From Granulicella sp. (GTDB taxonomy: Bacteria; Acidobacteriota; Terriglobia; Terriglobales; Acidobacteriaceae), in contig DAHXNO010000185.1 in the NCBI GenBank assembly GCA_027365345.1, positions 1-53,294 of the forward strand: a stretch of DNA of 53,294 bases, in the 5' to 3' direction. Positions within the stretch are counted from its first letter, which is position 1. Each line of letters begins with the position of its first letter. Positions 34,921-47,133 of the stretch are shown piece after piece. The notes under the pieces were generated by a model, which ran no database searches, was not told the DNA's origin, and saw only the letters and a program-made list of their open reading frames with translations. The position numbers and the translations under genes are program-made.

Positions 34921-35232
34921 ATGGCAGGGGTGATGGGCAATTGCGGGACGCCCAAGACCAAGCTGATTCAGAACTGGATGGCCAAGCGCCGCCGCTTCCA
35001 TGTCCACTTCACGCCCATCTCGGTCAGTTGGCTGAACCTTGTGAAACGCTGGTTCACCTTGCTTACAGAACGCCGACTTCGACGCGGCGTTCACCGCTCA
35101 GCCAAAGAACTGAAATCCGCGATCGACAACTTCATCGAACACCACAATCGCGGTCCAGTACCCTTGATCCGGCACAGGACCGCGAAAGCAGATTCTCCAT
35201 TCACTCGCCAGCTTTTGGAAGCGAATTCATGA
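34921..35232 (+). pseudogene. IS630-family transposase, C-terminal fragment
   Basis: Encodes MGNCGTPKTKLIQNWM, RFHVHFTPISVSWLNLV and RWFTLLTERRLRRGVH, the end of the catalytic domain of IS630-type (DDE_3) transposases, including the NxGTHK-like and WLNxxERWF-like motifs. A stop lies four codons upstream, and no N-terminal part or first catalytic Asp is present. The changes VDNYGTH to MGNCGTP and VERWF to VKRWF (loss of the expected Glu) show decay. No terminal repeat was identified. Confidence 0.85.
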
Positions 35233-36024: not shown

Positions 36025-36462
36025 TTAGAGGAGATTTAGCGTTGACCAGTTGCCTTGTGAGCGAGGGCAATCCTTCGAGCGAGCGCACTCATCTTTCTTT
36101 GCTTCAGTTACGATAGCACTGCGCAATTGCGATCCTTTCGCTTCCAGCTTGCGCCAGACAAAGGGATTAGCGTCAGGGCCGTAGGCGGCGACGAAATCTT
36201 CAATTGTCTGGCGCAACGGTTCGGTGTTCTTAGAACGAGACTCTGCGCAGAGCCTTTCGACTCAAAATCCCAAACCAGATTTCCGCCTGATTGAGACGAC
36301 TAGCCGAGGTCGGCATGAAGTGGAAGAAGACGTGGGGATGAGCCGCCAACCGGGTGCCGTTCTTCTTGTGGATGAAGTAGTTGTCCAGGATGATCTGGAT
36401 TTCCTTTTCAAACGGAGAGATCGGCGACCACACGGTCCATGAATTCCAGAAACTCCTGAATG
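36025..36462 (-). pseudogene. IS630-family transposase remnant with at least two frameshifts
   Basis: Reading leftward, three frames give SDFIQEFLEFMDRVVADLSV, then FEKEIQIILDNYFIHKK with FHFMPTSASRLNQAEIWF, then LRQTIEDFVAAYGPDANPFVWRK. In order these make up the C-terminal half of an IS630-type transposase. Frame changes are needed near 36410 and near 36225. The subgroup differs from the fragment at 34921-35232. It is joined directly to an IS5-type end at 36463. Confidence 0.88.
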
Positions 36463-36586
36463 AAGTCGCTCGAGTTCGATTTTCTCTGCACCCTCCTTAC
36501 TTGATAATCACCAGCCTGAGCCGGCTGCATAGAACTGCCTGGTATCTGGCGCCATCCAGGCTGCAAGGTTCGTAAACAGACTTTTA
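36463..36586 (-). mobile_element. Fragment: 5' end of an IS5-family element, homologous to the one at 46246
   Basis: The reverse complement reads TCTGTTTACGA, then TTGCAGCCTGGATG, GGCAGTTCTAT, GCCGGCTCA and GCAGAGAAAATCG in the same order and spacing as 46250-46373, at roughly 80 percent identity by eye. The outermost bases CGTAAACAGACTTTTA resemble the right terminal repeat of that element. Only the left end and the first codons of the transposase remain before the sequence switches to IS630. Confidence 0.8.
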
Positions 36587-36617
36587 GACTGCATTGAATT
36601 TCCGCAGAGGTTGCGCG

Positions 36618-37976
36618 TCAAAAGAGAAACCTCACATCCAAATACAATGTGTTATTGGCGCTGGCGCTGCGCTTAAAGCCGTCATAGTTGGTCGAACCGC
36701 CATTGAAACGCGTGTACCCAGTGTATTGCGGAGTGATTTGCAGGTTTTGCCATGGCCAGTATGACAAATTCACAATATAGCCGGCACTCCTCGGGCTCCC
36801 GTTGGCGCTGCCGAAAACCGGAGCCGGGGCATACAGCGTCTGATCGGGCGTTCCACTGGTGTCAAACCACGCAAATGTTCCCGTGTACTTATTGCCAATG
36901 TGGTACTCGGCATTAGCCGTAAACGTGTTCAGATCATGCCCTCCTCGAGCGGCCAATCCCTGGCTCAGGCTGGCGAGCAGGTTGGAATTCTCGCGAATAT
37001 AAGTGCCTCGGAATGACAATACATCCGTCCGAAACAGCGTTCGGTCGATTTGAGTATCAAAGGCATAGTCGGTGTAATCATTTTCAGGTCCGGTAGCTGA
37101 ATTGGGACTGCTGCGCACATGCATACCGTAGGTTCCGATTTCATATTGCGTTGAATTGGTAAGCTTTTGGTAGGCAAGACGCCAGTAGGGAGCGGCTCCA
37201 CGGATGTTATAAGGGAAATTCACTCCCGAGTTCGGCTGTTGGCCGCCCGCGTGCTCTGAAGTGTAGGCTGTCACATCGAGATACAGATGATTGTCCCACA
37301 TAGAGTAGCCGCCGAATCCGGCAACGTCCTGCGCCAGAGGGCCGTCGATGATGGGGACGGCTGCCGGCGTAGGCGCAAAGTCGCTTTCGACCCAGGGAAA
37401 GCCCCATGCCGGCGTGCTGTTCCAAAGATCTTCCACGGTTGGATTGTTATTGAAATCAAGCCCGTATACTAGGCTCTTGCCATCTAGCTTGGTCTGGTTT
37501 GCGTAACGGATGTCGGTGTTATCTATTCCGAAATGGTCGTCTTGCGTGTCATAAGTGACCTGGAGAAAGCTGCCGACGTTGCTCGTCCAGGCTCCCGAGA
37601 GATAAAGAGAGATATCTTGAGGAAGCTCAAAATTACCATTTTGCTGGTTTGGCTCTGGACTATTCAATGATGTGTATGAAGTCTCCAGCATAACCGAAAG
37701 GGGTAGTGATTTGAGCAGATCCAGCCCCGCGGTCTTCTTACCACCCTCCGTTACTATGCCTTCTGTGAGGTTCGAGCGTTGCACATAGGCCAACAGCTTG
37801 AATAGCCGTCCGGCTGGATTGAGCTCCGGAGGATCGTAGTGACAACCACTGCAAGGCAAACCTGTCTGCCGCGCGAAGCTCGGGACGGCCTCCGCTCGCT
37901 GCGGGGCAAGGGCGGCAAAGCATATCAAAACTGGCGCCGGAATTACGGCAATCAATCTGCGCATGGTGCTCTTCAC
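36618..37976 (-). CDS. Cyc2-like outer-membrane monoheme cytochrome-porin fusion
   Basis: 452 residues from the GTG at 37976 (AAGGAG seven bases upstream; the frame is open to 38015). The signal peptide ends PQRAEA-V. Then comes VPSFARQTGLPCSGCHYDP, a single CxxCH heme site near residue 42, followed by PAGRLFKLLAY; this N-terminal motif is shared with Cyc2-type fused cytochrome-porins. About 390 residues of alternating aromatic/hydrophobic strands follow, ending LDVRFLF with a terminal Phe as in outer-membrane barrels. Cyc2 passes electrons from external ferrous iron across the outer membrane; here donor and direction are unknown. It is last in the electron-transfer cluster, after a 202-base gap that may hold its own promoter. 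Related non-iron families cannot be excluded. Confidence 0.75.
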   Translation of the reverse strand: MKSTMRRLIAVIPAPVLICFAALAPQRAEAVPSFARQTGLPCSGCHYDPPELNPAGRLFKLLAYVQRSNLTEGIVTEGGKKTAGLDLLKSLPLSVMLETSYTSLNSPEPNQQNGNFELPQDISLYLSGAWTSNVGSFLQVTYDTQDDHFGIDNTDIRYANQTKLDGKSLVYGLDFNNNPTVEDLWNSTPAWGFPWVESDFAPTPAAVPIIDGPLAQDVAGFGGYSMWDNHLYLDVTAYTSEHAGGQQPNSGVNFPYNIRGAAPYWRLAYQKLTNSTQYEIGTYGMHVRSSPNSATGPENDYTDYAFDTQIDRTLFRTDVLSFRGTYIRENSNLLASLSQGLAARGGHDLNTFTANAEYHIGNKYTGTFAWFDTSGTPDQTLYAPAPVFGSANGSPRSAGYIVNLSYWPWQNLQITPQYTGYTRFNGGSTNYDGFKRSASANNTLYLDVRFLF

Positions 37977-38178
37977 TTGGATTCTCCTTGTTTCTGGCTT
38001 CGCTACTCCGGCCACTTACGTGTTCTGCCCGTACGTGTGCTGGGAGGCGTCATTCCTGACTCGCGCCCGGCGCTCGGGAAGCATCGCATCAGCCCCAGCG
38101 CCGCCGGATACGCTGGAGGAGAGCCCAAGCCGCAGCCCTATTCCCAGCCTTGACTTACTGTCGATGACGAATCCCTAA

Positions 38179-38910
38179 CTATCGCATCGCGTACACCATC
38201 CCTGGCGCCTCAAAGGGTGGATTTGAAACCAGCCGGATATATGCAATCACCGCACGGATATCCGCTTTGCTGAGAGTGGAGCCGTAGGCTGGCATGAGAG
38301 CAGAAAGATTCATAGCCGGGCCTCCATGACTGATAATCGATGTCAGATCGGCATCGTCCAGCTTGTTGAATGTGTTCCCCTGGTCAAAAGAGTGCGGCGC
38401 AACGGCAAGATTGTCGTAATTTGAGACCTGTTCCGGTGTGGAATTGGGATCATGGCAGCGGGAGCAATATTTTCTTTGTACCTGGTAACCCAGCATCTCT
38501 TGATAGCCGGCCGCCATTTCGTTGACCTCCAAATGAAGTGCCTTTCCCTTTTTGTCCGTGGTGATGGCCTCGACTGGGTAACGCCCCGAGCTGTCGCCGA
38601 CTGTCACGTTGGTGCTCACCTCCCCGTTGGAGTCAGAGAGAGCCTCGGCAGGATCAAAGCGAACACCGTCAGGCCCACTGAATTTCACCAGCGCGCCCTG
38701 CACCCCGTTGCCCTGATCGTCATTCACGTCCACGACGAGCGGCTGCGGCAGCGGTGCTCCTGGCGTTCCTAGCTGCTTGTCGCCGCTGGAGACGGCCAGC
38801 GCTGAACCGGAAGCGGTGGCCTGCAGCGCGGGAGCGGGCGGGGCATGGTGCGAGCAGCCGGTGCAGATCGTCAACGCGAGCATTTCCAGGATCAGCAAAT
38901 ACCTGGTCAT
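38179..38910 (-). CDS. Lipoprotein monoheme cytochrome c with Ig-like domain
   Basis: 243 residues. The N-terminus (MTRYLLILEMLALTICTGC) is a lipoprotein-like signal with Cys19 as likely lipidation site. Residues about 45-130 (PLVVDVNDDQGNGVQGALVKF, EALSDSNGEVSTNVTVG) form a bacterial Ig-like (Big_1-type) domain. The C-terminal 110 residues are a class I cytochrome c with CSRCH (149-153) and a likely Met ligand in ALMPAYG. Its ATG overlaps the stop of the octaheme gene as ATGA, indicating translational coupling. It could shuttle electrons between the inner-membrane bc-type complex and the outer-membrane cytochrome; this is inference. Confidence 0.88.
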   Translation of the reverse strand: MTRYLLILEMLALTICTGCSHHAPPAPALQATASGSALAVSSGDKQLGTPGAPLPQPLVVDVNDDQGNGVQGALVKFSGPDGVRFDPAEALSDSNGEVSTNVTVGDSSGRYPVEAITTDKKGKALHLEVNEMAAGYQEMLGYQVQRKYCSRCHDPNSTPEQVSNYDNLAVAPHSFDQGNTFNKLDDADLTSIISHGGPAMNLSALMPAYGSTLSKADIRAVIAYIRLVSNPPFEAPGMVYAMR

Positions 38911-40976
38911 TGGTTTGCCTCCTTCCCAGAGCCCTTCTGCGCCATCAGGAAGGCGGTAAGGGCGCGCGCATCGGCGTCGCTCATATTGCGGTTGGGTTCA
39001 ATGGCGCCGGGGCGCAGAGCCTGCGGATCCTTTAGCCATGCATAGATCCACGCCGCAGTAAGACGCGAACCCACCGTTGTAAGGACCGGTCCGATATACC
39101 CCCGATCCGTATTGGGGTTGACCATGTGACATGACTGGCAAGCGTATTTTGAATAGAAGATCTCCTTGCCTTGCTCCACCAGCGCTTGCGGATAGCCGCT
39201 ATCGGGCATGGAATCGCGATCGATCTGCGGAATTTGATAGACGGTCATGATGTAGTCGGTCAGGATGGCGCGTTCGGGGTCAGAAAGATTGAATTTCGGC
39301 ATGCGGCGAATCAGCGTGGGGCGGATGGTATTTGGATTTTTCAGGAAGTTATCGAGCCATTGGCGCTGCACCGAGCTGCCCTCCGCGCTCAGGTCTGGAG
39401 CTATATCTCCTCCATTCCCGTTGATGCGGTGGCAGGTCTGGCAATTCAGATCAGCCATGAGCTTGCCGGCCTGTCCGGCTGGGCGGTAGTTCGATGGCGT
39501 TGGAGTTGCGAGCTGCCATTTGCGTGGCATGGTAAAGCTGCGATCAGTTAAGGCGAGCAGGGCGGTTGCCAGCGCATCCACCTGGGCGGGAGTAAAGGTG
39601 TATTGCGGCATGCGCAATCCGGGAACAAACTCGCGGGGATGCTGAAGTTTGGCGGTCAAGTAGGCGGGCAGCGTGTGGGCCATGCCGGCTACGAACACGA
39701 TCTGCGCCAGCGGCTTGCTTCCAATGCGGCTCAGATCAGGAGCAAAGTTGTCGGGTTTAGAGACACCGCGGATCGCGTGGCACTCAGCGCACCCATATTC
39801 GTTGACCAGTTGGCGTCCGTGTGCGATCTGGCCGGGCGTTGCCGGATCGAGGTGTACGTTGGCCGTGAAGCTGGAGTTGGTCTGGCTCTCCAGGAAGTCC
39901 ATGAGCGGGGTGAGTTGTTGGCTGGTCCAACGGAAATGGGGCATTAAAGTCTTCGGATCGTACACATGCGGATCGCTGAGCCATGACTTGAGCCATTGCG
40001 GCTTTACCTTGCTCCCAATCCCCGTAAGTTCCGGACCGAGATTTCCGCCCACCACATTGCCTGCCGCATTCTGCATGGCGTGGCACGAGGCGCAGAAGGA
40101 CTCCCCATACAGAGCCTGGCCTGCGGCTATCTGCGCTGCGCTCGCAGCGGAGGAATCAACGGCTGGGGTGGGCGCGGGCGGCGAGCCGCTATCCGGCTGA
40201 GGCGCGCTGTTGGCGATGAGAAACGCTGAGATATCTCTGGCTTCCGCGTCACTCAGAAGAAAATTAGGCATGGTTGCGGCTGCGGACCAACTTTGCGGAT
40301 CCTTGAGCCAGGCATATATCCATTGGCGGGAGGTCTTCTCCGCTATATGAGTTAGTGGAGGCGGGTCGTCCGTTGGGGTCATCGTGCTGCCATCCGGCAG
40401 ATTGACTGTATGGCACCGCAGGCACCCGTAACCGGCGAGCAGAGCGCGGCCCTGATTGAGAGTCGGCGTTCCCATCAGCGGCGAATGGTGGCACTGTCCG
40501 CAGGAAGCCTCCATATACCGTGCCGGCAGAAGGGGTTCATCAGGCTCTTTGGTGCTGTCGTGCGCGCCGGTGACAGTAGTGGCGACGCCTTGGCCGAGGT
40601 GGCACACGACGCACCCAAACTCCGTAAGCTGGTGAGGGATGGGCGGATGGCTGCCAAATGGCTCAGTTTTAACATCCCCAAGGCTGGATTCTTCGAGGCC
40701 GAGGTGGCAGGTCTCACAGCGATCAACGACCCCCGCCTTTGGGATCCAGATCTGATGGATACCCGGCCGGAAGTTCCGCATGAGCTTGACGCTATCGCGG
40801 CGTATATGGATCATCTGCACATATTGCTGCTGGTAGCGCCGCCATTCGCTGAAGTGATCCTTTAGCGGAGCAATGGCGAGAACCACGAGCAAAACAAAAC
40901 TCGCGGCGCCGAATAGCTGGATGGGGTCATGAAACAGCGCACCCCAGGAGAAACGGGTTTTTTCAGGCGCTCTCAC
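38907..40976 (-). CDS. Membrane-anchored octaheme c-type cytochrome
   Basis: 689 residues starting at a GTG directly after the stop of the subunit-IV gene, whose end supplies GGAGGAG as ribosome site. One membrane helix (residues 19-38) anchors it. Eight CxxCH sites follow: CETCH 87, CVVCH 122, CGQCH 159, CLRCH 185, CASCH 295, CAECH 396, CQTCH 512 and CQSCH 613. The first three are close together; the last five each begin a mono-heme cytochrome c domain with a distal Met (MPNF, MPHF, MPQY, MPKF, and a Met near NMSDADA). It probably replaces cytochrome c1/f as electron outlet of the adjacent Rieske/cytochrome b complex and extends it as a periplasmic wire. The domains look like products of tandem duplication. 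Confidence 0.93.
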   Translation of the reverse strand: MRAPEKTRFSWGALFHDPIQLFGAASFVLLVVLAIAPLKDHFSEWRRYQQQYVQMIHIRRDSVKLMRNFRPGIHQIWIPKAGVVDRCETCHLGLEESSLGDVKTEPFGSHPPIPHQLTEFGCVVCHLGQGVATTVTGAHDSTKEPDEPLLPARYMEASCGQCHHSPLMGTPTLNQGRALLAGYGCLRCHTVNLPDGSTMTPTDDPPPLTHIAEKTSRQWIYAWLKDPQSWSAAATMPNFLLSDAEARDISAFLIANSAPQPDSGSPPAPTPAVDSSAASAAQIAAGQALYGESFCASCHAMQNAAGNVVGGNLGPELTGIGSKVKPQWLKSWLSDPHVYDPKTLMPHFRWTSQQLTPLMDFLESQTNSSFTANVHLDPATPGQIAHGRQLVNEYGCAECHAIRGVSKPDNFAPDLSRIGSKPLAQIVFVAGMAHTLPAYLTAKLQHPREFVPGLRMPQYTFTPAQVDALATALLALTDRSFTMPRKWQLATPTPSNYRPAGQAGKLMADLNCQTCHRINGNGGDIAPDLSAEGSSVQRQWLDNFLKNPNTIRPTLIRRMPKFNLSDPERAILTDYIMTVYQIPQIDRDSMPDSGYPQALVEQGKEIFYSKYACQSCHMVNPNTDRGYIGPVLTTVGSRLTAAWIYAWLKDPQALRPGAIEPNRNMSDADARALTAFLMAQKGSGKEANQ

Positions 40977-41681
40977 CTAACTCCTCCACGGCCAGACCCA
41001 CGACCAACCGGGTCCACGGAAAAATGTACCCACGAGAGTGAGAACAATGAATACGAAGATGAACCATGTCATAATCCACCAGGACACCGGTCTTGCCGCG
41101 AGATAGCGGCCAAGCCGATGGGGAGATTGCGGTGAACTGATGGCCGCCAGCAGCATGAAAGCGGCGATGATCAGGGTTGGCGCCAAGGCATCGTACATGG
41201 CGAAAAACCAGAGAAAGATCGAGAGAGCCCCGGCCACGGAAGCGAAGATAGTGAGATTGCGCCGGCGATTTCTTAGGAACAGGCCGCTGCCCCGAATGTT
41301 GATATTGAAATATGGAATTACTACCAGGGCCATCACCAGCAGCCCTGGAATGAGAACGCCGGCAACCACCGGCGGAAAGTAGTGCAATGTTTCCTGCAGT
41401 CCAAGAAAATACCAAGGCGCCTTGGCAGGATTGGGAGTCACCGTTGGATTGGCGACGCCTTCCAGCGGCGCATTGAAGACAAGTGACATGAGCACAAGAG
41501 CAATTACCAGGAGTTCGACCGCCAGGGCAGCCCGGAATAAGGCTTCTGGATAGGTCTGGACCTGCTCTTCATCCACGCTCTTGACCTGCGCGGAGGTTCT
41601 GCGCGTGACGAAGACCACGCGTCTGGGCGCCTTGCGCGCATCCGAATCCACTCCAACCACGAAATCCTTGGGTTCTGTCAT
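40977..41681 (-). CDS. Cytochrome b C-terminal (subunit IV-like) protein of a Rieske/cytochrome b complex
   Basis: 234 residues with a soluble N-terminal segment of about 45 residues, then four hydrophobic helices. [22 protein letters not shown] is the quinol-oxidation-site loop; the usual PEWY is replaced by APWY, so the conserved Glu is missing. This variant is seen in several menaquinol-type bc complexes. With the b6-like subunit it makes a split cytochrome b as in b6f complexes. Its ATG overlaps the b6-like stop as ATGA. The extra C-terminal helix ([21 protein letters not shown]) is not part of the minimal subunit IV. Confidence 0.92.
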
Positions 41682-42499
41682 GGTTTCTCCACCGCCTCCG
41701 CGACTGCGACGCCCTTCGCGACACTCGTCTGGGAGGGTGTATCGGCGTGCTGCCGTCCGTCAGAGTTTCCGTTTCCCACGTAGAGGCCTCCATCTTTGCG
41801 GATCCTCCAGAAATGGACGGCGATAAGGAGAACCGCCGCCAGCGGCAGGACCACGCAGTGCAGCACGTAGAAGCGCAACAGGGCATTGGCGTTAACCAAA
41901 TCGCCGCCGAGTAAGAGAAAGCGGATTTTCGGCCCGACGAGGGGAACATACTTCGCGATATTCGTTCCCACGGTGATGGCCCAGAACGCCAATTGATCCC
42001 AGGGCAGAAGATAGCCCGTATAACTGAGCAGAAGAGTTACCAGCAGCAGGATGACGCCGATGACCCAGTTGAATTCGCGCGGCGGCCGGTAAGCGCCGCG
42101 GTAAAACACCCGGAACATGTGGGCAAATACCAGCACCACCATCGCATGGGCTGACCAGCGGTGCAGGTTGCGGAGAAAGAGGCCGGCGGAGACAACGTAG
42201 CGCAGGTCCTTCATGTCCGCGTAAGCCTGCGGCACAGATGGATGGTAGTAGAACATCAACAGAGTCCCGGTTGTCACGAGAACCAAAAAGGTTCCCAGGG
42301 TGAGCGTACCGAGATACCAGGTGGCGTCCAAGCGCAACATGCGCCGCCGCACCTTGGTGGGAAGAATGTGCAGAAACACGTTCTGCTGAATCTTCTGAGC
42401 GCGGTGCAGCGAACTGTCGCCGGGACCACTCCGGAAGATGGAGCGCCACAGGCGGCTCTTGGTTATGTTATCGAAATAGAAATCCAATTTTCCCGCCAT
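41678..42499 (-). CDS. Cytochrome b6-like diheme subunit
   Basis: 273 residues, four core helices. Helix B has [16 protein letters not shown] with two His 14 residues apart; helix D has [17 protein letters not shown] with two His 15 residues apart, the b6f-type rather than mitochondrial spacing. These bind the two b hemes that pass electrons across the inner membrane. The first 60 residues are basic and lack the Cys that anchors the extra heme c(i) in b6f complexes. [13 protein letters not shown] is the quinol-site helix. It starts one base after the Rieske stop and overlaps subunit IV by four bases. Confidence 0.95.
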
Positions 42500-42500
42500 T

Positions 42501-42992
42501 TCAAATCCTCAGGAACTGCATCGGAGGGATGACCGTTGCGCGGTCGACCATGATGTCGCCACCGTCGCTGAGCCAGGTGCGGTACCACGGCAAAGGTTTG
42601 GGGGCAGGACCGGCGATCTTCTTGCCGTAACGAGTGAAGCGGCTACCGTGGCAGGGGCAGGCAATAATGCCCAAATCCTGCCTCCAGGCCGTCATGCAAC
42701 CCAGGTGCGTGCATATAGCGCTCAATGAAAAGAAGCCTTCCTGGAGGTGAATGAGATAAATTCCCGTAACCTGATCTTCGGTGACGGAGTTCATGGCGTA
42801 TTTCTCTGGGCTGCCGGCGTTGACAATAGGCGAGGGTTCATAGAGAACATTCGGCGACATGTACTGATAGGAGAAACTCAGCGTCCCTGCCGCGGCCAGA
42901 CCAAGTGAGCTGAGCCCTAACCGGGCGAAGAAGGCTCTGCGGTCAACCTTCCTTTCCGGTTGAGCCGACCCGGGTTTGCTATCCTCTGCCAT
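42501..42992 (-). CDS. Rieske iron-sulfur protein with Tat-type signal anchor
   Basis: 163 residues from the ATG at 42992, which follows AAGGAGGGGAGTG; the frame is open further upstream but would overlap the flavoprotein gene. The twin-arginine motif [13 protein letters not shown] precedes a hydrophobic helix. The [2Fe-2S] ligands are in CTHLGC (94-99) and CPCHGS (112-117), with [10 protein letters not shown] in the usual proline loop. It extracts electrons from quinol in the bc-type complex. It starts 11 bases after the flavoprotein stop and ends one base before cytochrome b. Confidence 0.95.
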
Positions 42993-43003
42993 CACTCCCC
43001 TCC

Positions 43004-44974
43004 TTATTTGGTTTTGCCCGCGGCGGCTTGCAACGGCGCATTGATAGCGGCAATTGAGATCAAACCGGAGGGCTCGCCAGGCTTTAGGCTGTAAGCCTCC
43101 ATCGTGATCATGTCCACGGGGCAACGAGCTGCGCACAGGCCGCAGCGAATGCAGCGCGTCTCGTCTTTGAGCATTACCGAGCCGGAGATCACGCCCAGTT
43201 CCTCAGCCTTGATTTCGTCCAGCTCTACACGCAGCAAGGATTCCTGCGCGACGAGTTGTTCCACAACTTCAGGTTCAAAGCGGAAGCGATCAAGACTCAC
43301 CAGTTCCAGGCAATCTTCCGGGCAAACGTCAACACATCCGCCACACAGAATGCAGAGACTGCCATCCTCTAAATTTCCCTCGAACACGGTGTTAACCCAG
43401 CAGTGCAAGCATCGCTGTGCCTCCCGTTGGGCGCTGGCCTCATCTAGCACCAGTTCAACTTCGGTCATGCCGCCGCGCCGGTCGACGGGCAATGTAGGTA
43501 TGGGCTGGCGAACGAGATCCAGCAGATCGCTGGGCATGGAGTGCCGCGGGAGCACTTCAACCGTTATTGCTGGCTCAGGGTGGATCACCCCGCGCAAAAA
43601 TTCATCAATGCCTATCGCCGCGCGCTTGCCGTCGGCTACGCTGTCGATGATCAGGCGTGGCCCAAAGACACAATCGCCTCCGGCGAAGACCCCCGCGGCG
43701 GAGGTCATGAGGTTGTTGGGAGCCACCGCGATCAAGCCGCGGCGGGAGATCTCCACGCCGTCTTCGGGCGTAAGAAAGTCGAGCCGGGGCGCTTGGCCAA
43801 TCGCCATGATGACGGTATCGCAGTCGAAGATCGTCTCGCTGCCTTCGTAGAAGCTCGGATTGAAGCGGCCGGTCTCATCGAAGACTCGCTTGGTCTTCAC
43901 GGCTTCAAGGCCGGTAAGACGGCCACCGTCTCCGATGAAGCGTTGGGGGCCGAAGCCAGGGTGCAGGATGATGCCCTCTTCTTCAGCGTCCGTGATTTCT
44001 TCCAGAGCGGCGGGCATCTCTCCACGTCTCTCGATGCAAACCAGATGCACCTCTCGCGCTCCCATGCGCAGAGCAGAGAGGGAAACATCCATCATCTCCC
44101 GCGCTGCGACCGTGTCGATGTTCTCCTGCGACGGCTCCTGGCCTTCAACGGCGGCGTGCTGGCGGACCACTTCGCGCGCGGCGGAGCGGGCTACGTCCAT
44201 GGCCACATTTCCCCCGCCGATGACGATGACTTTCTTGCCGATTGTGAACTGATAGCCCAAGTTGACGTTGAGCAAAAAATCAATTCCCTTGTGCACGCCG
44301 TCGAGGTCCACGCCGGGTATGGAGAGATCGCGGCTGCGATGCGCTCCGACCGCAATCAGCACCGCATCGAAACCTTGATTGCGCAATTCCGCAACGGTAA
44401 AGTCGCGGCCGACCGCCTGATTGAGTTTGAGGGTGATATCGCCGGTAGCCAGAATCTCTCTTACCTGCGCCTGAATCACGCTGCGCGGCAAACGATATTC
44501 CGGCACGCCAAGATAGAGCATGCCCCCGGCCACCGGGGCAGCCTCAAAGATGGTGACCGAGTAGCCCAGCACCGCCAGATCGTGGGCTGCGGAGAGGCCA
44601 ACAGGGCCGGCTCCGACGATCGCTACGCGGTAGGGCAGCTTCTTCTGGATTCGGCCTGCGTTCACATCCACTTTGCGCCGCGATTCTGGGCCGTAGCGCT
44701 CGGTAAGGAACCGTTTGAGGGCGCGAATTGCTATGGGCTGATCGATCGCCCCGCGCCGGCAAGCGGTTTCACACGGATGCGCACAGACGCGTCCGCAGAT
44801 GCTGGCCAGAGGATTGGGTTCGCGCGCATAGCGGTAGGCATCTTCGTACTTTCCTTCCGCAATGAGGGCGACATATCGACCTGCATTGGTGTGCGCAGGG
44901 CAGGCCATCATGCAGGGGAAGTTGGTGTTCAGCCACTGCGCGTCCACCGTTTTGTCTTCGTAGCGCTTCAACAT
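43004..44974 (-). CDS. GltD-like FAD/NAD(P) oxidoreductase fused to N- and C-terminal iron-sulfur domains
   Basis: 656 residues from the ATG at 44974 (GAGGGGAAGG upstream; a GTG at 44992 is also open). The N-terminal segment CMMACPAH...CGRVCAHPCETACRRG is the two-cluster domain of glutamate synthase small subunit. VAIVGAGPVGLSAAHDL binds FAD, and VIVIGGGNVAMDVARSA binds NAD(P)(H). The C-terminal 150 residues hold a CLHC pair and two ferredoxin motifs, CILCGGCVDVCPEDC and CIRCGLCAARCPVD. No glutamate-synthase large subunit is present. Its place in a Rieske/cytochrome b operon suggests electron exchange between NAD(P)(H) and the quinone or complex, perhaps on the cytoplasmic face of the membrane. 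Not exported. Confidence 0.9.
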   Translation of the reverse strand: MLKRYEDKTVDAQWLNTNFPCMMACPAHTNAGRYVALIAEGKYEDAYRYAREPNPLASICGRVCAHPCETACRRGAIDQPIAIRALKRFLTERYGPESRRKVDVNAGRIQKKLPYRVAIVGAGPVGLSAAHDLAVLGYSVTIFEAAPVAGGMLYLGVPEYRLPRSVIQAQVREILATGDITLKLNQAVGRDFTVAELRNQGFDAVLIAVGAHRSRDLSIPGVDLDGVHKGIDFLLNVNLGYQFTIGKKVIVIGGGNVAMDVARSAAREVVRQHAAVEGQEPSQENIDTVAAREMMDVSLSALRMGAREVHLVCIERRGEMPAALEEITDAEEEGIILHPGFGPQRFIGDGGRLTGLEAVKTKRVFDETGRFNPSFYEGSETIFDCDTVIMAIGQAPRLDFLTPEDGVEISRRGLIAVAPNNLMTSAAGVFAGGDCVFGPRLIIDSVADGKRAAIGIDEFLRGVIHPEPAITVEVLPRHSMPSDLLDLVRQPIPTLPVDRRGGMTEVELVLDEASAQREAQRCLHCWVNTVFEGNLEDGSLCILCGGCVDVCPEDCLELVSLDRFRFEPEVVEQLVAQESLLRVELDEIKAEELGVISGSVMLKDETRCIRCGLCAARCPVDMITMEAYSLKPGEPSGLISIAAINAPLQAAAGKTK

Positions 44975-45020
44975 CGCGGCCCTTCCCCTCACTCTTCCGG
45001 CGCCGATAGGGCGCCTACCC

Positions 45021-45602
45021 TCACTTGCCGACCGTTACATCCGTCGTCATATCTCCCGAGACCGTGATGGACTGTGAGTGAGGTCTCTTTCCCTCATGCC
45101 AGGCGATCAGAGTGTAGGCGCCATTGGGAACGTTCTTGATCGTATAGTTCCCGGATGGGTCGGTTTGCGCGTAATAGGGAGTGGGCGACACAATGATGTA
45201 GCCCGACATGTCCGGGTGCACGTAGCAATACAGGGGAACGACCCCCGGGTTCTGGAACGTGAAGCTGCGGTCGCCACCCTGGGGCCAGGTGCCCATGTTG
45301 TGGCCGAGTTTCTTGTTGCCGTTGATCGATGGCCAGTAGACGTTGTGCTCTACCGCATCGCTGTTGTGGAATACAACCGTCATTCCCTGCTGGATGACAA
45401 GGATATGAGGGACAAACATCAGGTTTTTCTGATCCATCACTGCGTGCTGCGCCGGCGCCGGAAAGCTCTTGGCCGGATTGGCTTCGAGATACACCACAGA
45501 CTCACCCTTGACTCCGGAGACCTTACCGTGAATCGTTCCCGCCCAGGCGCTGGCCGTTATCGTCAATGCCGCCGCTGCGACCGCTAACATCCCAAATTTC
45601 AT
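45021..45602 (-). CDS. Periplasmic cupredoxin (plastocyanin-like) with carboxypeptidase-regulatory-like domain
   Basis: 193 residues with a signal peptide (MKFGMLAVAAAALTITASAWA). Type 1 copper ligand candidates are His86 (EHNVYW) and Cys126, His129 and Met132 in LYCYVHPDM, the normal His-Cys-His-Met order. The last 45 residues (TDPSGNYTIKNVPNGAYTLIAWHEG) form a carboxypeptidase-regulatory-like beta-sandwich. It is the first gene of the electron-transfer cluster, with GGAG seven bases before the ATG and a CRP/FNR-type palindrome about 140 bases upstream. It could be a mobile electron carrier like plastocyanin or rusticyanin (inference). Confidence 0.9.
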   Translation of the reverse strand: MKFGMLAVAAAALTITASAWAGTIHGKVSGVKGESVVYLEANPAKSFPAPAQHAVMDQKNLMFVPHILVIQQGMTVVFHNSDAVEHNVYWPSINGNKKLGHNMGTWPQGGDRSFTFQNPGVVPLYCYVHPDMSGYIIVSPTPYYAQTDPSGNYTIKNVPNGAYTLIAWHEGKRPHSQSITVSGDMTTDVTVGK

Positions 45603-45751: not shown

Positions 45752-45791
45752 GCAATTCGATTCTTTGCGAGAGTCTATAGGGACGTGTGTT

Positions 45792-46100
45792 TTAGGCGAC
45801 TTTCTGGAAGGCGACGAGTTGGGTTCTGGTGGCAGCCAGCGGTTGCTCTTTGAGTAGATAGGCCTTCATCACTCGCCGGTGCAGTGCAAACAGCGCATTG
45901 GGTTGCCTCTTTTTGCGTGCTCAGGGTTGCCCAGCAATGCAGCAGCAGCCAGCGTTTGCCCTTCACCACCGCACCCGCCGTGTCGCCTTTGCGAAAGAAC
46001 TCGGCCCGGCGCACTTCATCAACCGCTGCTCCTGCGTGCTTCATGATGTGCAAGCTGTCGCGGAGGAAGCGGCACTTCGGCAGCCACAGTTCGATGCTGC
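45792..46100 (-). pseudogene. ISL3-family transposase remnant with frameshift
   Basis: Reading leftward, LHIMKHAGAAVDEVRRAEFFR and KGKRWLLLHCWATLSTQK match the central part of ISL3-type transposases (DxFHxxK..., KGxRWLLLRNxxNLS). After a frame change near 45895 the text continues NALFALHRRVMKAYLLKEQ and stops at 45792. The N-terminal half and the C-terminal end are missing. It lies immediately upstream of the cupredoxin operon promoter region. Confidence 0.85.
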
Positions 46101-46245: not shown

Positions 46246-47133
46246 TGAGAACGTGTTTACGATGTTTGCAGCCTGGATGACACGAGACACCTGGCAGTTC
46301 TATCTAGCCGGCTCATCGGGGCGGTAATCAAGAAGAATGGCGCAGAGAAAATCGTACCCGAGCGACATCACCCGGGAGCAGTCCGAGCAGATGCAGCCCT
46401 TGCTGGAACGTGTACGCGTGCGCACCAAGCCGCGCACGGTGGATTTGCATGAAGTCTTCAACGCCGTGCTCTATCTGCTGAAACGTGGCTGACCATGGCG
46501 CATGCTCCTCGATGGGTTTCCCAACTGGGCCACGGTGTATTCGTACTTCGCCAAGTGAAGCGCGCGTGGCGAGAATTGTAAAGATCAGTTGGCGCGGCAA
46601 GCGAGAAACAGCGGCGCGACGGCTCAACCAGCGTCTTGATCCTGGACGCGCATCGCGTAAAGAAAACCGACAGCGCTGAGCGGAAGAGATGGAACACGGG
46701 CAAGAAGGCGACGGACATGAAGCGTCCCATGGCCGTGCACCAGCAGGGACATCTTCATGCCGTGGCTGTGGCTGTGGCCGTGGCTGTAACCACGGCCGAG
46801 GTGAGCGATCGGGACGGAGCTTCAGCGGCCTTCGACCGCTGCAAGGCGGATCTTGGCCGTGTGGAAAGCGTGCTGGTGGATGGCCTACAGCGGCCAACCC
46901 TTCGCCCACGGCATCATGGTGCGGCTGCAGGCCACCAGCCAAGTCGTCAAACGCGATGAACTGCACGCCTTCGCGTTGCTCGCCAAGCGCTGGGTCGTCG
47001 AACGTTCGTTCGTGGGGCTGGAAAAGTACCGTCGGCTGTGGAAGAACGGTGAACGGAAGCTCAATACCACCTTGCAGTTCGTCCACCTCGCCTTCCTCGT
47101 CCTGCTACTCAGAAGATCGTAAACAGGTTCTTA
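46246..47133 (+). mobile_element. IS5-family (IS427-like) element, ends intact, transposase decayed
   Basis: An 888-base element with terminal repeats TGAGAACGTGTTTACGAT (46246-46263) and ATCGTAAACAGGTTCTTA (47116-47133) matching at 16 of 18 positions. The length is typical of the group. The right end overlaps the stop codon of the neighbouring TonB-dependent receptor gene by three bases. No target duplication could be defined. A homologous left end lies at 36463-36586 in inverted orientation. Confidence 0.85.
46338..47122 (+). pseudogene. IS5-family transposase with several frameshifts and stops
   Basis: Starts MAQRKSYPSDITREQSEQM and VDLHEVFNAVLYLLKRG followed by an in-frame TGA; then WRMLLDGFPNWATVYSYFAK and a stop. 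In other frames follow VILDAHRVKKTD-like text, TGKKATDMKRPMAVH, TTAEVSDRDGA, RCKADLGRVESVLVDG, and finally LLAKRWVVERSFVGLEKYRRLWKNG up to the end. All landmarks of an IS5/IS427-type transposase are present in order but not in one frame, so the element cannot move by itself. A GGCTGTGGC-type run (46763-46790) appears to have expanded. Confidence 0.88.

Follow-up and report, generated by a model that had tools for sequence, protein, structure and literature searches.

The stretch of DNA considered here, a contig of 53,294 nucleotides from Granulicella sp. (Acidobacteriota, family Acidobacteriaceae; contig DAHXNO010000185.1 of assembly GCA_027365345.1), is referred to at its full length as the window. 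Eight open reading frames (ORFs), all on the minus strand, lie at 36618..45602 and putatively encode one set of electron-transfer proteins that joins the outer membrane, the periplasm and the inner membrane to NAD(P). From the first gene to the last, they are:

45021..45602, minus strand: periplasmic type-1 cupredoxin, the first gene, with a CarboxypepD_reg-like C-terminal part (Pfam Copper-bind and CarboxypepD_reg, both above cut-off).
43004..44974, minus strand: GltD/NfnL-like NAD(P)/FAD flavoprotein, a cytoplasmic NAD(P) module with an N-terminal Fer4_20 domain and a C-terminal two-[4Fe-4S] domain (Pfam).
42501..42992, minus strand: Rieske [2Fe-2S] protein (Pfam Rieske) with a twin-arginine-like N-terminus, judged by eye.
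41678..42499, minus strand: N-terminal half of cytochrome b, b6-like, with four heme-b histidines (Pfam Cytochrome_B).
40977..41681, minus strand: subunit IV, the C-terminal half of cytochrome b, with five hydrophobic segments and the Qo motif APWY (Pfam Cytochrom_B_C).
38907..40976, minus strand: membrane-anchored octaheme c-type cytochrome, with eight CxxCH motifs and one hydrophobic segment (18-36).
38179..38910, minus strand: mono-heme cytochrome c, a probable lipoprotein (lipobox-like CTGC/S, by eye), with an Ig-like domain (Pfam Cytochrome_CBB3 above and Big_1 below cut-off).
36618..37976, minus strand: Cyc2-like fused cytochrome-porin of type B (published motif and structure prediction).

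Inspection of the ORFs and the sequence found all eight genes and their spacings where the initial annotation had placed them, with intergenic distances from the cupredoxin to the lipoprotein cytochrome of 46, 11, 1, -4 (an ATGA overlap), 0 and -4 (ATGA) bases, and domain searches agreed with the identities proposed for the cupredoxin, the GltD-like protein, the Rieske protein, the split cytochrome b, the octaheme cytochrome and the lipoprotein cytochrome. The Cyc2-like gene probably starts at GTG 37976, which is preceded by an AAGGAG-like site, and with this start the annotated gap of 202 bases to the lipoprotein cytochrome gene holds. Co-transcription of the Cyc2-like gene with the seven-gene operon is neither shown nor excluded, because a pattern scan of 36400-38300 pointed neither way: it gave no terminator-like site and one promoter-like site, on the opposite strand, with nothing above chance. 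Three weak, short transposase remnants (DDE_3, ISL3-like and DDE_Tnp_1_2; 34921-35232, 45775-46053 and 46853-47122) lie on either side of the block and fit past mobility.

The window porin had no Pfam or NCBIfam family at E 0.001 and no solved relative in a PDB sequence search, and it was named from the published Cyc2 motif and a predicted structure. That signature consists of AXPXFAR[Q/K][T/Y] about 5 amino acids before a single CXXCH, with PXL following, in a protein of at least 365 amino acids, and fused cytochrome-porins of the Cyc2 type have been described with 16 strands (PMC8406198). The window porin has EAVPSFARQTGLPCSGCHYDPPEL and satisfies the strict form, AXPXFAR[Q/K][T/Y]..CXXCH..PXL. 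An AlphaFold2 model built from 13 rows placed 16 long strands behind an N-terminal heme segment, at modest confidence (pTM 0.67, mean pLDDT 61.7), and its top Foldseek matches were outer-membrane porins (E 1.3e-9). Signature, modeled strands and structural matches are in keeping with the Cyc2-like outer-membrane barrel of the initial annotation. The protein thus resembles Cyc2 and Cyt572 in its signature motif, single heme and 16-strand barrel (PMC8406198), and one paper, as far as its available text goes, groups Leptospirillum Cyc572 with homologues from Acidobacteria and Nitrospira.

Among 87 porin candidates (the window included, the duplicates L070 and L095 left out), 28 carried the strict signature and 85 a relaxed form. 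In most relatives the porin is of a second, divergent type, here called type A, with R[QK]Y instead of RQT and the Cyc2 signature in strict or relaxed form; it stands in place of type B in other loci, and the type-A porin of locus L043 was likewise modeled with about 16 long strands (pTM 0.61, pLDDT 61.0). The genomic setting of the window porin differs from that of the Cyc2 gene of Acidithiobacillus ferrooxidans, which sits in an oxidase operon: the window gene adjoins a Rieske/b-NAD(P) complex.

Conservation of the block was assessed from the octaheme protein. Of 396 genomes of the phylum, 42 encode a match to it at E <= 1e-40, in a few cases over only half its length. A scan of public genomes contributed the best 80 of at least 564 confirmed relatives; the records of those 80 name Acidobacteriota in 78 cases and Bacteroidota in 2. 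Removal of 2 duplicates from 116 relative loci left 114 distinct loci, and a further 37 were dropped for short flanks, leaving 77 with at least 6.8 kb upstream and at least 2.5 kb downstream; these had been selected for octaheme similarity and are weighted toward close relatives. A Rieske protein and cytochrome b were encoded in all 77 loci, the lipoprotein cytochrome in 76, the cupredoxin in 75 and the GltD-like protein in 71, and in 72 a same-strand gene no more than 6.5 kb away encoded a protein with the Cyc2 signature, a count that takes in motifs such as AFPIFARKY. The gene order recurred in loci of 16 families of the phylum, at octaheme identities down to about 32%, so the arrangement is more than chance; a search for the same synteny in other genomes had been proposed with the initial annotation, and by its result the block is not confined to one strain. 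Within these 16-family loci, the GltD-like gene was absent from L057, L059 and L067, and the whole inner-membrane core from L051. On this evidence the eight-gene set is very probably a conserved unit with a shared function.

Several loci vary the theme. L051 (9198-16086, G313:C59) holds a reduced version with Cyc2-A, two cupredoxins, a multiheme protein with 6 CxxCH, the lipoprotein cytochrome and a 3' gene of unknown kind, and gave no Rieske, cytochrome b or flavoprotein match. In L068 (8535-9932, G171:C9), from the window's family, a shorter multiheme partner (465 aa, 6 CxxCH) accompanies GltD, Rieske and fused cytochrome b genes. Cytochrome b and subunit IV are fused (421-517 aa) in L057, L059, L064, L065, L066 and L068 and split in most others. 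A protein of about 430 amino acids closes the block at its 3' end in 38 of the 77 loci (e.g., L036 13242-14594 and L037 12199-13458); it has a signal-like N-terminus by eye and no Pfam family in the one copy scanned (L036), and its gene occurred with type-A Cyc2 in 37 of 53 loci and with type B in none of 19. NtrC-like/two-component genes (37 ORFs linked by similarity; L133 2111-3526 and kin) lie near 18 loci and Crp/Fnr-type regulators (L088 18169-18885 and kin) near 7, each group named by eye from one copy, and these recurring neighbors hint at redox or oxygen control.

A search from Cyc2 itself does not select for the complex. Type-B Cyc2 had 13 matches at E <= 1e-30 in 10 of the 396 genomes: six in this locus type, five in a compact Rieske/b operon, one beside the lipoprotein cytochrome at a contig end and one (G072) in neither setting, so that 11 of the 13 adjoin a Rieske/b locus of either type. 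The compact operon encodes type-B Cyc2, a Rieske protein and a cytochrome b-tetraheme c fusion (four CxxCH, 862-910 aa), and by the models used no flavoprotein gene lies between or beside these genes. It occurs in G000, G007, G382, G394 and G313, all of the window's family, and includes one copy in the window's own genome (L167, 6569-11608 of G000:C55; the others are L169, L171, L172 and L174). Besides these two, the window genome has a further Rieske/cytochrome b locus of different make-up, which encodes a diheme c protein (L168, 3147-11405 of G000:C201).

The position of the cyc2 gene varies, being 3' in the window lineage and 5' in most other loci. On a tree of 33 type-B proteins the 3' class needs 4 changes, 3 of them forced by well-supported branches, which shows repeated rearrangement; alone, the tree does not establish that the gene always stays with the block, because 26 of the 33 rows come from octaheme-found loci. 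For type A, 26 of the 41 strongest matches (at least 288 bits) lay within 10 kb of an octaheme match. The query alignment itself contained 12 of these, and without them the proportion, a fairer one, is 14 of 29. In 18 Cyc2-A loci apart from the complex (the 15 remaining strong matches plus three weaker), a cupredoxin gene stood at most two genes away in 11 and four genes away in 1, was not seen in 2, and was cut off by the contig end in 4. Because the cupredoxin adjoins Cyc2-A in loci apart from the complex, Cyc2 plus cupredoxin forms a separate module that can combine with it.

Cofactor sites are retained throughout the putative complex. All eight heme histidines of the octaheme cytochrome are kept in 76-77 of 77 relatives (solved relatives in a PDB sequence search were limited to short c-type domains), and the copper ligands H86, C126, H129 and M132 of the cupredoxin in 73-75 of 75. 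The flavoprotein keeps 17 cluster-type cysteines in at least 68 of 71 relatives, and its nearest solved chains are 9bov and 9n5u (called NfnA), with others that include Nfn subunits. It shares Fer4_20, FAD and the NAD(P) fold with NfnB/NfnL, GltD and PRK12771 flavoproteins and differs from them in being encoded within a Rieske/b operon and in scoring below the cut-off of PRK12771, its best NCBIfam family (444.9 bits against 516). The Rieske ligands and the serine of CPCHGS are present in 77 of 77 relatives and a phenylalanine at the tuning tyrosine position in 76. The closest solved chain to the Rieske protein is Kuste4569 of Kuenenia (9rk4, E 2e-20) and the third is Kustd1480 (9rk3, E 7e-18), with the b6f-type 8hn2 ranking between the two.

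The cytochrome b heme histidines (columns 113, 127, 214 and 229) are kept in 110-113 of 113 rows and H44 in 109; these rows, like the 117 loci of the motif count below, include the window and two duplicates. The four b-heme histidines and the Rieske ligands that mark canonical bc1 and b6f complexes are thus present. The heme-cN cysteine position, which we take from b6 and with which the b6-like stretch of L067 agrees, holds Cys in one of the 113 cytochromes b, that of L067, and otherwise Y, W, F, G or A, with two gaps. Loss of this cysteine was considered as a mark of the NAD(P) module and rejected, as it is also missing in L057, L059, L103, L126 and L136, all without GltD, and only L067, likewise without GltD, has it. 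The usual Qo motif is PEWY; here it reads APWY in 111 of 117 loci and AAWY in one, and no motif was found in five. By simple hydropathy, subunit IV has five peaks in the window, and of five relatives tried one has five and four have four.

The closest parallel found for this core comes from anammox bacteria. In Kuenenia stuttgartiensis, Kustd1480-1485 and Kuste4569-4574 comprise a Rieske protein, a four-helix b6-like cytochrome b, a five-helix subunit IV, hexa- or octaheme c cytochromes and an FAD/Fe-S NAD(P) oxidoreductase, and the proposal for them is that electrons from menaquinol are bifurcated between NAD(P)+ and an acceptor of high potential (PMC12954380). The window core has the same parts list in one operon. 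Its Rieske protein shares the Ser/Phe pair of Kustd1480, which was measured at +335 mV, and its flavoprotein family keeps 17 Fe-S-type cysteines where the Kuenenia NAD(P) oxidoreductase models carry four Fe-S clusters (PMC12954380). Other traits differ: heme cN is in the models of that paper, whereas its cysteine is absent in the window and nearly all relatives; the window Qo motif is APWY, a departure judged against the usual PEWY; and the window locus adds Cyc2, a cupredoxin and a mono-heme lipoprotein, with no HAO-like octaheme protein seen. By residue spacing only, H44 may correspond to Kustd1481 His62, a proposed ligand of a new interface heme b. Because the heme-cN cysteine is absent, the Qo motif departs from PEWY and H44 proves nothing about NAD(P), we do not assign the complex to the anammox family; judged from its sequence, it looks built to work like it.

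In the initial annotation the exact combination was not known as a described unit. That no longer applies to the Rieske/b6-like b/subunit IV/octaheme/NAD(P) oxidoreductase part, which is known from Kuenenia (PMC12954380). For the full unit, including the joining to Cyc2 and cupredoxin, no description was found in a partial survey of open-licence PMC literature, mainly titles and abstract starts. One paper reportedly deals with the presence of several Rieske/cytb complexes in the same organism and may cover part of the combination.

Taken together, these observations suggest that the locus encodes one envelope-spanning electron-transfer machine with an anammox-like core and outward flow, a reading to which we give a probability of roughly 0.5. 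By analogy, the chance that the Rieske/b-NAD(P) core works as an anammox-like bifurcating complex is about even; given such a core, outward flow would be slightly likelier than inward, and this direction is the least certain part. Menaquinol would be oxidized at the outer-side Qo site. The first electron would pass from the high-potential Rieske cluster to the octaheme cytochrome, then to the lipoprotein cytochrome or the cupredoxin and on to Cyc2 (perhaps to an oxidase), and Cyc2 would deliver it to Fe(III) or another external oxidant. The second would reach the GltD-like subunit on the cytoplasmic side by way of the b hemes and reduce NAD(P)+.

The outward direction was chosen because only outward flow would yield NAD(P)H by this route. 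In the anammox scheme, NAD(P)H arises on quinol oxidation while the Rieske/octaheme arm removes electrons (PMC12954380). The flavoprotein would receive electrons only by way of the b hemes, and these are filled as quinol is split at the Qo site and the Rieske protein takes the partner electron; NAD(P)H would therefore form only while the Rieske/octaheme arm drains outward. Of the conduit proposed in the initial annotation, one unit joining the outer membrane, the periplasm, the inner membrane and NAD(P) is well supported by synteny, the cofactor ligands and the repeated Cyc2-Rieske/b association; one of the uses suggested for it, reverse electron flow from an external donor to NAD(P)H through the complex alone, is doubtful, as the anammox scheme would make Cyc2 an exit. 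A role for Cyc2 as a ferric reductase has been discussed for A. ferrooxidans, and Fe(III) reduction at low oxygen is on record for Acidobacterium capsulatum and Acidicapsa (PMC8790237). A still more specific version, in which the Cyc2-ended complex bifurcates menaquinol and the pull of Fe(III) through the cupredoxin and Cyc2 drives the other electron uphill onto NAD(P)+, is a speculative proposal that we hold with considerable doubt; if true, respiration of external iron and NAD(P)H formation would be linked by direct mechanical coupling, with neither complex I nor the Qo glutamate nor heme cN involved.

Several observations weigh against this picture of a bifurcating, outward-flowing machine. 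The Cyc2 signature is lacking in 5 of the 77 loci (L106, L118, L124, L146 and L148) and the GltD-like gene in 6, and G130, the only further genome of the genus that was searched, had no octaheme match. The octaheme protein was the route to most loci and to most rows of the Cyc2-B tree, so the constancy of Cyc2 within the block is partly built in; the search free of that selection comprises just 13 matches in 10 genomes, and 15 of the 41 strongest Cyc2-A matches had no octaheme match within 10 kb, type A also occurring without the complex. Quinol oxidation at this Qo site may differ from that in studied complexes, because the Qo glutamate of PEWY and the heme-cN cysteine are absent. H44 also occurs in L067, which lacks GltD, and is thus not specific to NAD(P) coupling. 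The sequence comparison with Kuenenia covers the Rieske protein, with cytochrome b, the octaheme cytochrome and the flavoprotein likened by description. Finally, the activity demonstrated for Cyc2 is Fe(II) oxidation, which favors inward flow.

Inward flow is the best-placed alternative, at clearly less than even odds. Cyc2 would oxidize Fe(II) outside, a terminal oxidase would be supplied through the rusticyanin-like cupredoxin and the cytochromes, and quinone would be reduced by the Rieske/b complex working in reverse, with the flavoprotein in the uphill branch. Cyc2, a cupredoxin and a bc complex make up the parts list of A. ferrooxidans, where the uphill branch is tentatively assigned to the PetI bc1 complex and SdrA; the rus and pet operons of that organism resemble the window locus in that a single iron pathway draws on Cyc2, a cupredoxin, a bc complex and an accessory gene linked to NAD, and differ in forming two separate operons, in having a bc1 complex and in having SdrA where the window has a GltD-like Fe-S flavoprotein (PMC10654088, PMC8790237). 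The pairing of Cyc2-A with a cupredoxin outside the complex (at most two genes apart in 11 of 18 loci) also suits this scheme.

Against it, a b-heme-linked flavoprotein complex running in reverse would spend NAD(P)H and a high-potential electron to make quinol. No oxidase was noticed among the recurring neighbors (22 groups, 10 of them taken as sequence and named by eye only, and not all identified), and the window also has rhamnosidase and NAGLU glycosidase genes, the equipment of a heterotroph. Of 59 genomes, 9 have a match to PF00016, which may mark RuBisCO or a RuBisCO-like protein: 6 belong to the 39 genomes with an octaheme match (one of these 6 RuBisCO matches being partial; 39 of the 42 matching genomes were covered) and 3 to the 20 same-family genomes without. 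RuBisCO is thus not enriched in carriers, another point against inward flow, and autotrophy was set aside as a guide to direction.

A further possibility, which we regard as unlikely, is a non-bifurcating NAD(P)H:external-acceptor oxidoreductase, akin to a fused complex I/III, in which the GltD-like protein would feed the quinone pool through the b hemes and quinol electrons would leave through Rieske, octaheme and Cyc2. The missing heme cN and the altered Qo motif leave the quinone chemistry open, and absence of GltD from 6 of 77 loci would be expected of an optional input module. However, the anammox authors argue that an analogous use wastes energy where NADH dehydrogenases exist (PMC12954380), and the Rieske residues match a protein whose potential lies above that expected in a plain menaquinol chain.

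That Cyc2 is a mere neighbor and the seven-gene operon the true unit seems improbable. The 202-base gap, the 3' position of cyc2 in the window lineage against 5' in most others, the short insertion sequence (IS) remnants flanking the locus and the occurrence of Cyc2-A apart from the complex would all fit such a view, but the Cyc2 signature within 6.5 kb in 72 of 77 loci and the 11 of 13 unselected Cyc2-B matches that adjoin a Rieske/b locus argue against it. Least probable is a role in metal or metalloid detoxification, like that of the selenite/tellurite cluster ExtHIJKLMNOPQS of Geobacter (a porin, multiheme c, the Rieske protein ExtO, the cytochrome b proteins ExtP/ExtQ and the lipoprotein ExtS): extHIJKLMNOPQS likewise clusters a porin with a Rieske/b set, multiheme c and lipoprotein c (PMC5877670), and ExtP and ExtQ are the top NCBIfam matches of the b subunits, with ExtS scoring on the octaheme protein, but all fall under the curated cut-offs (267 against 290, 50 against 150 and 80.5 against 100 bits), and the available text of that paper does not describe the porin as heme-fused and names neither a cytochrome-porin fusion nor an NAD(P) flavoprotein in the cluster (PMC5877670).

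Links from external iron to NAD(P)H have mostly been inferred from scattered genes. The window locus brings together genes for the outer-membrane, periplasmic, quinone and NAD(P) parts. The anammox complexes, for which the role in NAD(P)H formation is a proposal, would have look-alikes in a second phylum, whose synteny points to a partner for the high-potential arm, and the absent heme-cN cysteine and Qo glutamate offer natural variants for studying Rieske/b bifurcation. Acidobacteriota are common in soils, and since the block recurs across the phylum, iron-linked energy metabolism of this form becomes testable in these organisms.

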